The translations under genes were made by a program, and so were the position numbers. Shown in pieces: positions 15,801 through 64,000 of a stretch of 64,000 nt of DNA; the stretch's first letter is position 1, and the number at the start of each line of letters is the position of its first letter. Under the pieces are notes generated by a model. It ran no database searches and was not told where the DNA came from. It saw only the letters and a program-made list of their open reading frames with translations. This DNA is from Auxenochlorella pyrenoidosa (taxonomy: Eukaryota; Chlorophyta; Trebouxiophyceae; Chlorellales; Chlorellaceae): the NCBI GenBank assembly GCA_001430745.1, contig KQ482061.1:1220589-1284588 (forward strand), given 5' to 3'.

Positions 15801-18800
15801 ACGCGAGCGCCTGCTAAGCAGCAGGCCGAGATAGACCAGTGCGCCTGCAACACCCGCTTGGTTTCTTGTGCAGAGCCGGTGAGGGCCGAGGCTCGTCCTG
15901 CTGCCTGCGCATGGCGTGCGGCTGTCGCCGCGCTCCAGGCCCTGCAGCAGCCCGCCTCTCCCTTGTTCCTTTGCCCACCTGCGTCCGCCATCCACGTGCG
16001 CTTGCGGTCCTGCTCCTCCACCCCGTGCCCCACCACCTCCTTGACAATCGCGCGGCAGGTGGCCACCATCGGCGGCTGGCTCTTCTCACTGCTCTCCGCC
16101 TCCTGCGGGGGCGGGGCGGGCCCCAGGGGGCAGGCAAGGCTGGGTGTGGGCATCCAGTCAAAGCCACCGGCGGCTGTGCCTCGCTTGCTCGGCTCCGCCT
16201 CAGCTGCGCCATGCAGTCAGAGAGCCAGCTACGCTGGCCAGGCAGGCAGCGGGCCACGGATGCCACCCTGATTTTGCTGAGTCGAGCGGCCCCGCGCGTC
16301 GCAGGCACCTGCCCCCACCCACCTTGAGCCACCAGTCTCGGTCGATGACCACCCCGTTGGCTGCCAGGCTCTTGATGCCGCGGGGCACAATCTTCTCGGG
16401 CATGGCGGCCTGGCCGTTGGCCTCCTCAAGCTTCGAGGCTGCGGGGGCGGGAGGTGTGCAGGAGGCTGGGCGCAGTTGGAAGGCGCAGCTGCAAACACAA
16501 GGTTTGCTGGTCACACAGCAGGTCACGTCACTCTGTTACAAGCATCCACGCGGCCTCCCATGCCCCCTCGCCAAACGGCCCTGCCCCAAGGGCCCCTGCC
16601 CGCCCTGCCCCACCCCACCCACCTGTGATCCACACCTCTGCCGAGGTGGGCACCGCCTGCCGCGCCTTGTTCAGCACCTTGCGCGCATTCTCATACGTCT
16701 CCAGCCGCGCCAGCGCCAGCCACAGCTCCACATGCTGCGGGCAGCACTCCACCGCGCGCGACTGCGGCGCCAGGGGTGCCACAACGGGCGCGTGGGGGGC
16801 GGCCCGGCGGCGGCAGGGGCGGCGCCTCGCACCCCAAACCCCTTGCTCGAGGCAGCTGCCCGCTTGGCAACAGGCTGCAAGAGGGCATACACCGCAGGCG
16901 AGGACCGGGCGCGGCGCTGCAGGGGCCAGCCGATACGGACCAGCCCTGGGGGCTCAGCTGGGCCGCGGCCTCACCAGCAGCACGCGGGCGTCGTCCTCCT
17001 CGCTGATCTCCACCACAGCCTTCCACAGCCGCACAGACTGCGGGATGCGCTCCAGGGCTCTGCGGCACGCCAGTGTGGGCGGGCGGGGCGGGCGCAGGCG
17101 ATAAGTGCGCGCGGTGGCGCCTCGGCAGGTGGGCGGCGGCGCAGGCACTGGCTCATCGCAGGGCGCCGCCAGCCCTAGCAGCAGGTGCCGCACAGCAGGG
17201 CGCCGCCAGCCCTAGCAGCAGGTGCCGCACAGCAGGGCGCCGCCAGCCCTAGCAGCAGGTGGCGCACAGCAGGGCCGCACAGTGGCCATGGCGCCGCCCC
17301 GCCTGTGCCGGCTTCGCGACGCGCAGGGTCCTGGAGTACAGCGCCCCGCAGGCGCCCACCTGAGCAGCACGCGCTTCTTGGCGGCGTCTGTCTGCTCCAG
17401 CCGCGCCGCCTGCATCCAGAGCTTGACGCTGTCGGGCAGCGCTGCCACGCCCCGAGCCAGGATGGCCTTTGCGTTCTCGGGGGTCTGCGGGGGTGAGTGC
17501 GCAGCAGCCAGCTTTCAGGTTCGACAGCTGCGGCGGTGCTGAGAGAAAGCAGGGAAAGCCGGGAAGTGCAGGAAGCTGGAGGGATTTGAGGCTTCTGACT
17601 GCGCGTGGCTGGTTGCAAGGAGAGCCGGGCAGGGCCAGTCTCTCGAGCCTGCCCAGCCAGCTGCCAGGCAAGGCCGCGCCGGGCTGCATGAAGAGGGGGC
17701 CGAGCCGCTGCCCACCTGCAGGCGCGCCGCCTCCAGCCACACATCCTCGTTGGAGGGGCACAGCTCGCAGCCCTTCATCATCAGCTCACGCGCCTGCAGG
17801 GCAGGGGGCACACCAGAGGCAGGGTCGCGCGCTGGCGCTGCGCTGCAGGGGCGGGCAGCGCCACGTGCCTCGCGCAGCACGCCCAGCGCACGCTGCGCGC
17901 CGCACCTGCTGCAGCTTGCCCGCCACTTCCTCGAGGCGCGCGGCCGCGATCCAGCCGGGGGCGTGCCGCGGGTTGGTCTGGATGACCGACTTGAGCAGCA
18001 GCCGCGCCTTTTTGATGTCGCTGATCTCGGCATCTGCAGGCAGCCAGGGACGGGTGGGGAGTCAGGCATGAGCCTGAGGAAGCAAGCCAGCGGGCAGGCG
18101 GCACCTATGCATGGGTGCAGGTGGCTGGCACCTCCAACGCTGGTGAAGCTGACAGCAGCAGGCGAGGAGTGCGCGGGCGCCAGGAAGAGGCTGCTCAGCA
18201 AAGGCCCCATGCTTTGGGCAGTGTCCGTCTGCCTGCGCGCGCCGCTCCTGAGTTCCGAAGCCTCGTGATCCAAATTCTGCACCCGCGGGCTAGCTGCCAC
18301 GCAGCCTGGGCGGCGGGCCCGCCCCGGCGCGCACCCGACTTGAGCGTGACGCTCTTCAGGTCTGTGAGGTAGCCCTTGGGGTCCACCACCGTCTGCCCGC
18401 TCACAGAGTCGGAGATCTTGTCCAGCTTGAGCTGCAGGCGGCACGGGCAGCGCAGGCAACGCGCGTCAGCAGGGCGGGCTGCAGGCGCCGCATGTGTCAC
18501 AAGGGCAGGCCACGCGCCCTGCCTGCCCGGACACCGCACCGGCATGCCCCACGCCTGCTGCTGTCGGCCAGGGCGGCTCACCTGCACCACCGTATTACGC
18601 CCCGCGCCGATGGCTGTCAGGTCTGTTGTTGCACCCCCCATGGGCGTGGCCAGGCCCGAGGCATCAATGGCGGTGGCAGTTGCCTCGCGCGCAGCGGCAG
18701 ACGCCAGCAGCGAGTCGGGGACGGGGGTGAAGCGGTCCAGGTGCTTCTGCTTCTTGATGGTGTAGTCGCCAATGTCTGGGATCGACTCCCACTGCAGGCC

Positions 18801-61863: not shown

Positions 61864-64000
61864 TCAGCGCCGCCGGTTCTTCCCCGGCTTGGGCCCGCTC
61901 TTCTTCACGCCCGGCGCCGGCCGCCCGCCCTTCTTGGCGCGCTTCTTGGCGGCGTCCTGGCCGCGCCGGTCCTTGCGCATGCGCGCGTCCAGCTTGGGCC
62001 CCTTCTTCTCCGCCTTGTACTTCTCGCTGCGCGACCCCTTGCCCTTCTTGCTGCCCTTGCCGGCGCGGGCCTGCGGCAGGGCAGCGACGGTGGGTGGGGG
62101 CGGCCGTTGGAACCTGTGGCCTGCAGGCGCGGGCGACGCACCAGGCGCTGCACGCAGGCATTACCTGCGCCCTCCCTGGGTGCCCAGCCCAGATGCCGTG
62201 CAACCATGCATCCCCCCGCTCCTGGGCTGCCGAGCCAACTGCACCCCGGGTGTATCGGCACTGCAGCCCTGGCTGGGCGCCACCCATCCCCTCACTCCCC
62301 GCCTCTCCTGAGCACCCACCTGAGAATACAGCTTCTCGATCTCCCGCATCTTCTGCTTCATGGGCACGTCCTCCTGGTTGGCCACCGCCTCGGCCTTCTG
62401 CCGCGCCTGCGGGGGCGGGGGAGGGGCAAGCCGGGGAAGGGAAGGGCTGGGAGGGCTGCTTGCAGCGCCAGACAGGGCGCGCTTTCAAGGGAGGGCCAGC
62501 GTTGGGTGGCAAGCTGCAGGCCTGGCGGGGCAAGATGAAGGGGGGGACACATGTGCTGGGCATGCATGCAGCGGCAGCTGCCCCGCCGCCAGCGCCAGCA
62601 TCCCACGGCGGCTGGACCCCCGGCGCACGCCCCGCACCTGCTGCAGCCGCATGCGCAGCCGCTTCTGCTTGCGCGCCTTGGCCTCCACCACCTTCTTCAG
62701 CGGGCGGGCGCCGGCGGAGCGCAGCTCCTCCCGCGCCGCCTGGTACTCCTCGGGGGTGATCTGCGGGGCGCCGCCAGCGCAGCCAGGCAGGCTAGGCGGT
62801 CAGCAAGCTCGCGCCCATCCGGCAACACCCGGCTGGAGCGGCTGTGGCCGCCAACCACCAGGCAAAGGTGGGGGCGGGGAAGGTGCGGCGCGGGGAGGGC
62901 GTGGCGCGGCGCCCCACCTGCGCCTGCGGCCGCATGAACTTGCGCTCATCCTCGTCAAACCACTTGGGCAGGCCTGTGTCGTGGCTGCACAGTGGGGGGA
63001 GGGGGCGCGGGCAGCCGCTCAGCCACGGTGGCTTTTGAAAACCAAAGCATAAACCACGCCGGGCTGACGCATGCGCGAGGCCGGGCGAGTGGCGAGGGGA
63101 GCGACGGGGCTTCATATACCGTCCTAGGGTGATTTCATGCCTGGCGCGGTGGCCCGGCTCAACCATATGCTTGTGAAATCGTAATCACCAGCCCCGCCGT
63201 CCCCCACAGCAAATGCAAGCAGCAGTGGAAGCAAGGGCGGGGCGTGTGTGCAGCAATAGAGGCTTCATGTACCGTCCTAAAAGGGTTTCATGCCTGGCGG
63301 AAGCCCGGCTCAACCATATGCTTGTTATTAGAAATCAGCAGCCTTGCAGCAGGGACATTGAGCGGGTGCAGCGACAACAGCAGGCGTCGCTCAGGGGCAG
63401 GCAGGCAGGCAGCATGCCGCAGTGAAAGCAGCAGAGCAGTACGCACGGAGCACTTCATATACCGTCCTAGGGTGATTTCATGCCTGGCGCAGTGGCCCGG
63501 CTCAACCATATGCTTGTGAAATCGTAATCACTAGTGCTGTGCACTGCTGGCAGGCGCATGTATGCAGCGAGCGCGGGTGCCAGACACGCCGGCAAGCATG
63601 CACGTTTGCAGCAACCAAGCGGGCAGAGGGCAGGGCAGACCGCGAGCGAGCGCAGCGACACGCAGCTTAGCGACCAGCGCCAAGGCACGCAGCACAAGGA
63701 AAACCCCTGCTGTTCTGAGCCTCCGGGCGGGCCCTGCGGGGCGGCTCACAAGGAGTAGCGGTTGTAGGCGGCCTCAATGATGTCGTCCTTGACCTTGCGG
63801 CGCAGCATCTTGCGTGCCAGGGCGCGCACCTCGGCCTGGGGGCGGGTTGCGGGGGAGCAGGGGTAGGGGCGTTCAGGTGGAGGGCAGCGGGGCGAGCTGG
63901 TAGCGGGTGCGGTTTGGCGGCGGGAGGGCCACCGATATGGCCGGACAGGAGGATTGGTAGGCACGCTCAGCACAAGCTGGGCAGCAGGGAGCCCAACTCC
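61864..64000 (-). CDS. SPB1: rRNA 2'-O-methyltransferase SPB1/FTSJ3, C-terminal part, partial at right edge
   Basis: The gene enters from the right; the methyltransferase domain lies outside the window. Exons visible: AEVRALARKMLRRKVKDDII with EAAYNRYSL (ending 63750), TGLPKWFDEDERKFMRPQAQ (starting 62984), ITPEEYQAAREELRSAGARP with LKKVVEAKARKQKRLRMRLQ, ARQKAEAVANQEDVPMKQKM with REIEKLYSQ, and a basic end (ARAGKGSKKGKGSRSEKYKA, DARMRKDRRGQDAAKKRAKK, KSGPKPGKNRRR) with stop at 61864. This matches the Spb1 C-terminal domain, including the 'LPKWF.EDE' and 'RP.KKV.EAKARKK' patterns. In yeast SPB1 methylates a guanosine in the large-subunit rRNA A-loop without a guide RNA and is needed for 60S maturation in the nucleolus. 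The intron 62985-63749 carries three snoRNA-like elements on the same strand. Confidence 0.9.
63105..63196 (-). ncRNA. intronic C/D-box snoRNA, U27 (SNORD27/snR74)-like, copy A
   Basis: 92 nt, sense to SPB1. On the minus strand: terminal stem 5' CGGGGCU (63196-63190), box C GUGAUUA (63188-63182), ACAAGCAUAUG (63174-63164) antisense to the CAUAUGCUUGU near the 5' end of 18S rRNA, one spacer G, box D' UUGA (63162-63159), box C' AUGAAAU (63138-63132), CUAGGACGGUAU (63127-63116) antisense to the AUACCGUCCUAG of 18S rRNA, box D AUGA (63115-63112), and stem 3' AGCCCCG (63111-63105), which pairs perfectly with the 5' stem. By the +5 rule the D' guide targets the second A of CAUAUGC, equivalent to human Am27. 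Confidence 0.83.
63260..63344 (-). ncRNA. intronic C/D-box snoRNA, U27-like, copy B (diverged)
   Basis: 85 nt. Minus strand: stem AGGCU (63344-63340), box C CUGAUUU (63338-63332), the same 11-nt ACAAGCAUAUG guide (63325-63315), box D' UUGA (63313-63310), box C' AUGAAAC (63291-63285), a UAGGACGGUA guide with 10 matches (63279-63270), box D AUGA (63268-63265) and stem AGCCU (63264-63260). The stem differs in sequence from copies A and C but is fully paired. The D-guide is shorter, so this copy may have lost part of the second target. Confidence 0.76.
63449..63538 (-). ncRNA. intronic C/D-box snoRNA, U27-like, copy C
   Basis: 90 nt. Minus strand: stem AGCACU (63538-63533), box C GUGAUUA (63531-63525), ACAAGCAUAUG guide (63517-63507), box D' UUGA (63505-63502), box C' AUGAAAU (63481-63475), CUAGGACGGUAU guide (63470-63459), box D AUGA (63458-63455) and stem AGUGCU (63454-63449). 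It is nearly identical to copy A between the boxes, while the flanking stem is different and still complementary. It is the first of the three to be transcribed. Confidence 0.83.

Follow-up and report, generated by a model that had tools for sequence, protein, structure and literature searches.

A Probable Triplicated, Dual-Guide Box C/D snoRNA Gene within One SPB1 Intron of the Green Alga Auxenochlorella pyrenoidosa

The stretch of DNA analysed here, hereafter the window, comprises 64,000 nucleotides of the Auxenochlorella pyrenoidosa genome. Its minus strand carries the C-terminal part of SPB1, and a single intron of this gene contains three box C/D elements in the sense orientation, designated copies A, B, and C in transcript order. 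The host gene is recognized by a five-exon peptide that matches the Pfam domain PF07780 Spb1_C with an E value of 1.3e-39; this identification covers five exons of the C-terminal domain, the N-terminal exons lying beyond the window's end. Joining the two exons that flank the snoRNA intron yields the peptide NRYS-F-HDTGLPKWF across the spliced junction. The parts of the host gene concerned are as follows.

63750..63835, minus strand: SPB1 exon 5' of the snoRNA intron (Spb1_C domain)
62985..63749, minus strand: SPB1 intron hosting the three snoRNAs, 765 nt, GT..AG
62918..62984, minus strand: SPB1 exon 3' of the snoRNA intron (Spb1_C domain)

Measured from the 5' splice site, copy A begins at a distance of 211 nt, and 120 nt separate the end of copy C from the 3' splice site. 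Ribosome biogenesis genes are common homes of guide RNAs. For instance, 72 of 131 snoRNAs in Ostreococcus are intronic, and 33% of the hosted snoRNAs reside within ribosome biogenesis genes, according to PMC7671301. As regards the host itself, the table of PMC8053127 credits 25S G2923 methylation to 'Spb1 in yeast'.

The original prediction had placed three snoRNAs in this intron. Its coordinates, strand, box order, both guide segments, and all three terminal stems were recovered when the sequence was read again, while it was silent on the off-consensus character of the C and D boxes and on the name of the site addressed by guide 2. The elements and their parts are listed below in transcript order.

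63449..63538, minus strand: snoRNA copy A, 90 nt, first in transcript, terminal stem AGCACU/AGUGCU
63525..63531, minus strand: copy A box C, GUGAUUA
63507..63517, minus strand: copy A guide 1, ACAAGCAUAUG (18S A28 site)
63505-63502, minus strand: copy A box D', UUGA, with one G between guide 1 and D'
63459..63470, minus strand: copy A guide 2, CUAGGACGGUAU (predicted 18S target AUACCGUCCUAG)
63455..63458, minus strand: copy A box D, AUGA
63260..63344, minus strand: snoRNA copy B, 85 nt, middle and most diverged, terminal stem AGGCU/AGCCU
63332..63338, minus strand: copy B box C, CUGAUUU
63315..63325, minus strand: copy B guide 1, ACAAGCAUAUG
63313-63310, minus strand: copy B box D', UUGA
63270..63279, minus strand: copy B guide 2, UAGGACGGUA, followed by a C that is mismatched at D+1
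63265..63268, minus strand: copy B box D, AUGA
63105..63196, minus strand: snoRNA copy C, 92 nt, last in transcript, terminal stem CGGGGCU/AGCCCCG
63182..63188, minus strand: copy C box C, GUGAUUA
63164..63174, minus strand: copy C guide 1, ACAAGCAUAUG
63162-63159, minus strand: copy C box D', UUGA
63139..63158, minus strand: copy C central hairpin between D' and C', 6 pairs, invariant in all three copies
63132..63138, minus strand: copy C box C', AUGAAAU
63116..63127, minus strand: copy C guide 2, CUAGGACGGUAU
63112..63115, minus strand: copy C box D, AUGA

Within the window, exact ACAAGCATATG occurs only at 63517, 63325, and 63174, and exact TAGGACGGTA only at 63469, 63279, and 63126, all on the minus strand.

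Box C/D snoRNAs represent a class of stable RNAs bound by Snu13, Nop56, Nop58, and fibrillarin. In their consensus, position 6 of box C pairs with position 1 of box D as G-C. The consensus boxes are RUGAUGA and CUGA (PMC8413462), and PMC6461891 is in line with the pairing between them. The three elements of the SPB1 intron are off-consensus on both sides of this pair: box C contains UGAUUA in copies A and C or UGAUUU in copy B, box D is AUGA throughout, and the pair is U-A in all three. Judged from their letters, UGAUU and AUGA compensate each other, and the Watson-Crick pair of stem II is predicted to be restored. Such compensation is already known rather than new, since PMC6461891 describes the same change in the cryptophyte nucleomorph RNAs GtNM-R12 to R14, where AUGAUU is accompanied by AUGA with the stem II Watson-Crick pair kept. 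The same source cites work in which the restored pair brought back binding of archaeal L7. The nucleomorph RNAs differ in belonging to a nucleomorph genome, and the comparison covers their boxes. Additionally, AUGA D boxes occur in a small fraction of Dictyostelium snoRNAs (PMC8817022).

By sequence, all three elements combine the parts of a kink-turn, namely a stem, an NRU bulge, the GA/GA pairs, a U.U pair, and a Watson-Crick pair, with a C at the R position of the bulge in copy B. The internal C'/D' motif consists of UUGA and AUGAAA flanking a 6-pair hairpin that is constant among the copies. Its bulge is only 2 nt long in our own reading, and it is therefore not called a regular kink-turn. 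Canonical C'/D' motifs are given for only 2 of 43 yeast snoRNAs in PMC8413462.

The terminal stems had been claimed to covary, and this holds in that both sides are changed in 4 of 6 pairs among the copies, a comparison of three sequences only; in copy B, the outermost of the counted pairs is not formed. When the structure of 15 named pairs is considered as a whole, 97.8% of cells can pair, against 25.6-47.7% with the partner slid, 11 of the 15 pairs being invariant and hence uninformative on covariation among the three sequences. In column shuffles, the observed covariation score was reached by 12 of 500 and the number of further pair types by 122 of 500. The terminal stem is present in the minimum-energy folds of all three single elements, which differ inside. 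As a side observation, in copies A (63474-63523) and C (63131-63180), both on the minus strand, the spacer that follows box C, GAUUUCA, could form 7 bp with the C' region, UGAAAUC; copy B keeps this pairing only in part. This may be a competing fold, which among the minimum-energy folds appeared for copy A alone.

Guide 1 (ACAAGCAUAUG) is invariant, offers 11 pairs, and is followed by a G and then by UUGA, box D', in all three copies. Its expected target in 18S rRNA is presumably CAUAUGCUUGU, around base 28; there, the base five positions upstream of D', a U, would face what we take to be the A of CAUAUGC. Against the expected 18S strings, the duplex amounts to -15.9 to -16.0 kcal/mol. The original prediction had assigned guide 1 to the U27/snR74 arrangement, and this assignment stands in 3/3 copies, with D'+5 opposite the A of CAUAUGC and one base before D' (expected 18S sequence). 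A single base between guide core and D' is also the layout of human U27. Like U27, snR74, and AtU27 (18S Am27/Am28), the copies carry the D' guide ACAAGCAUAUGG together with D', one base from the guide core. Unlike these, they possess a second 18S guide at box D, have UGAUU/AUGA boxes that elicit no Rfam match, and occur as three copies within one SPB1 intron. The A of CAUAUGC is listed as A28 in yeast and Arabidopsis, guided by snR74 or U27.

Guide 2 adjoins box D, and in all three copies its D+5 base would stand opposite the second C of AUACC in the expected 18S sequence. With that sequence, copies A and C form 12 pairs and copy B forms 11, including one G-U in our own reading, and the duplexes reach -20.5 and -17.2 kcal/mol, respectively. 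Copy B is mismatched at D+1 and keeps its pairs from D+2 on. Each element thus far described carries two antisense elements of at least 10 nt directly upstream of D or D' (3/3, against the expected 18S strings), and the guides are invariant or nearly so where spacers and flanks vary among copies. The claim of intronic C/D snoRNAs with two 18S guides is supported by this sequence evidence. A green-algal source agrees with the GUCCUAG form of the 18S stretch, which is that of green plants, and with a nuclear gene that is rich in GC and bears introns.

The site of guide 2 is probably the snR79 site, equivalent to yeast C1007, a number derived from offsets and the expected 18S letters. The assignment is made because the yeast, Neurospora, and Arabidopsis offsets agree with the expected 18S text. 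Moving 33 bases back on that text leads to the A before CG in AAGAACG, which we take to be consistent with Am974. In yeast, the listed 18S sites Am974 (snR54) and Cm1007 (snR79) are 33 apart, the latter being a measured site, and Neurospora has Am971 and Cm1004, likewise 33 apart. The Arabidopsis table of PMC8053127 gives A28, A978, and U1013, with the C1007-equivalent absent from it; an Arabidopsis offset of +4 puts the C at 1011, and U1013 then equals the U of AUACCGU, which is consistent. Numbering varies by source; in PMC3511168, Am975 is the site given for snR54 and SnoR59 in both species.

Identity of guide 2 with the U59/snR54 guide was considered and dropped, since yeast numbering places the A974 site 33 nt upstream of C1007. 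The pairing of guide 2 is confined to AUACCGUCCUAG, and the A974-equivalent falls outside it, provided that guide 2 sits at C1007. U59, snR54, and SnoR59 (Am974 in yeast, Am978 in Arabidopsis) are directed at the same 18S region, but at a different site, which guide 2 leaves uncovered and which in yeast numbering is 33 nt upstream. By our own numbering, a closer likeness is found in snR79 (yeast 18S Cm1007) and Neurospora Nc CD18 (18S Cm1004), whose D guide is directed at the same C; Nc CD18, like the SPB1-intron copies, guides from box D. In yeast and Neurospora this guide belongs to a separate snoRNA, whereas here it is joined to a U27 guide. The Neurospora table, as its columns appear, gives Nc CD18 no plant or human counterpart.

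The elements could also be single-function U27 genes, in which guide 1 alone methylates and guide 2 is a helper pairing or a non-methylating relic. Such a view would accommodate the D+1 mismatch of copy B and the Arabidopsis table of PMC8053127, which is without the C1007-equivalent and has U1013, 2 nt downstream by our own numbering. It is nevertheless quite improbable: the bases of UAGGACGGUA are constant at 10/10 positions next to a variable spacer, guide 2 adjoins box D and covers D+5, and the predicted site, by our own numbering, coincides with a measured Cm in yeast that is also listed for Neurospora. Function of both guides is the preferred reading.

Searches with existing models did not recover the elements. 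The covariance-model check proposed along with the original prediction failed for SNORD27, as Rfam models run over the whole window at gathering score gave no match, including RF00086, and a search at E up to 10 over 62900-63800 gave 6 weak matches, none to a C/D family and none to RF00086. The label 'U27-type' accordingly stands as regards guide and box geometry and finds no counterpart among Rfam C/D families even at E 10. The only snoRNA family among the weak matches, a Trypanosomatid H/ACA family at 63185-63244, was rejected at 14.3 bits against a gathering score of 35. Run over the window with an E limit of 10, a model trained on the three copies found these copies and no others, as expected from its training set.

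Boxes, guides, stems, and intron position are given by the sequence itself, and the exact guide and box strings occur nowhere else in the searchable genome. The guide 1 plus D' string ACAAGCATATGGYTGA has 3 exact matches in the searchable 51.6 Mb, all in the SPB1 intron, and its reversed-pattern control has 0. With one mismatch allowed, the pattern ACAAGCATATGRYTGA gives 5 genome matches, of which the two extra ones are without snoRNA-like context by eye. With at most 1 mismatch allowed, the search for guide 2 plus D returned 3 exact matches, each of them in the SPB1 intron, and one 1-mismatch match elsewhere, again with snoRNA-like context absent by eye; its reversed control yields 3 matches at up to 1 mismatch. 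The guide-string near matches (L052-L054, one mismatch each) were rejected for want of such context by eye. Since some stretches of the genome read N, these counts are lower bounds, and the search would pass over any U27 gene whose string had diverged further. In the viral_contigs collection, 40 stretches match the D' guide string and 3 the D guide string. A C-box-like 6-mer lies within 40 nt upstream in 6 of these 43, three of which look like one sequence, and a script search found the other guide near 0/43. These matches were dropped as relatives and treated as chance, none of the 43 having a second guide. Furthermore, a six-frame genome search for fibrillarin (PF01269), which is expected in any eukaryote, gave 0 matches and no candidates; this search is blind to introns, and introns or N-stretches may hide the gene from it.

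Recurrence of the architecture was assessed by a kink-turn scan for a stem of at least 5 bp, an NRU bulge, GA/GA, U.U, and a Watson-Crick pair joining position 6 of box C to position 1 of box D, a rule written after the elements had been seen and hence a post hoc test. On both strands of the 64-kb window, the scan returned 3 matches, exactly copies A, B, and C. Mononucleotide shuffles within 500-base blocks gave 0 matches in each of 20, and dinucleotide shuffles a mean of 0.06 and a maximum of 1, three being reached in 0/100. When the stem was relaxed to 4 or 3 bp, the window still gave 3, and 3/100 and 6/100 shuffles, respectively, reached 3. A chance origin, with 18S-like strings that are stray fragments of rDNA or match by accident within a GC-rich intron, might be entertained in view of the lack of an Rfam C/D match and the post hoc rule. 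It is extremely unlikely, as one architecture is repeated in three units that no dinucleotide shuffle reproduces, the terminal stems are compensated, and exact guide and box strings are confined to this intron in the searchable genome.

The copies are unequally related. Over the core, which spans boxes C to D, A and C match at 75/76 positions, and copy B agrees with either in 63/79 columns. It could be held that A and C are working genes and that B, which lies between them and has diverged, is a pseudogene in decay, its box C CUGAUUU lacking the 5' purine and the last A, its stem being the shortest (5 bp), and its core standing well apart from the other two. We consider this unlikely because decay should have cost some of the pairs, guides, or stem that are kept. 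Indeed, copy B retains the U6-A1 pair, both GA pairs, the full guide 1, and a compensated stem, as well as guide 2 from D+2 on.

The 60-nt flanks tell less of a common origin. For A and C, their local scores were reached by 67/300 (5') and 147/300 (3') shuffles, for B and C by 105/300 and 135/300, and for A and B by 44/300 and 16/300, the last being borderline; there may be a weak trace of a shared A-B 3' flank. A recent tandem duplication of whole units is not favoured, the A and C cores being 75/76 alike in flanks that are unrelated by the shuffle test. Purifying selection alone also explains the A-C likeness poorly because A and C agree fully in spacers where B departs from them. Recent exchange between the A and C cores, i.e., gene conversion, is the preferred though unproven explanation of these patterns, and the copies may alternatively have arisen by retroposition of mature snoRNAs.

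A second snoRNA family of this genome appears to present the same picture of alike cores in unrelated flanks. Rfam SNORD14 has at least 3 matches in the genome at 54.2-54.8 bits, short of the family cut-off of 64; of 200 candidates from a first look, 99 were scored. The resulting U14 (SNORD14-like) candidates lie on three contigs.

C62:102364-102487: candidate L055
C29:439434-439557: candidate L056
C63:170633-170756: candidate L057

Their cores are identical at 111 to 115 of 115 positions, and their flanks at 8 to 16 of 34 to 37.

Taken together, the locus is best read as a triplicated dual-guide box C/D snoRNA gene in one SPB1 intron that would methylate two 18S riboses, with a probability of roughly 0.87. 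The SPB1 pre-mRNA would be spliced and the excised intron trimmed to three snoRNPs, the terminal stem and C/D kink-turn of each copy recruiting the C/D proteins. Fibrillarin would then methylate 18S A28 via the guide before D', the job of U27/snR74, and the C equivalent to yeast C1007 via the guide before D, the job of snR79. This guide mechanism is established for the box C/D class; for the present elements, we infer that they are transcribed, processed, and bound by proteins, that both riboses are methylated, and that C1007 is the yeast number of the second site. A wider account, to which we would give even odds, is that a green-algal lineage fused the U27 and snR79 guide jobs in one snoRNA, and triplicated it inside an intron of SPB1, which itself encodes an rRNA methyltransferase. 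In this account, a compensated U-A pair has become fixed where the kink-turn formerly had G-C, and exchange between copies, ending at the kink-turn, maintains the similarity of the cores, the flanks and stems drifting with compensation.

Intronic, clustered, and multi-copy snoRNA families are already known in green algae. Chlamydomonas reinhardtii likewise has several clustered snoRNA copies per gene family, according to PMC7671301, and snoRNAs in intronic clusters are the subject of Genetics 2008;179:21-30, by its title. No report of a U27 and snR79 dual guide was found among the papers listed by literature searches on more general terms. If the main reading is correct, 18S methylation is predicted at the fungal Cm1007 site, which is absent from the Arabidopsis table of PMC8053127. 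One host intron would then hold all exact guide 1 plus D' strings of the searchable genome, and the guides for two 18S sites would be tied to the gene of a stand-alone rRNA methyltransferase. The locus would also illustrate how a joint change of the C and D boxes can hide snoRNAs from annotation based on Rfam. Apart from the SPB1 locus, the window contains a 37-nt unit repeated in tandem at 17158-17275, in 3.2 copies with 98% matches.
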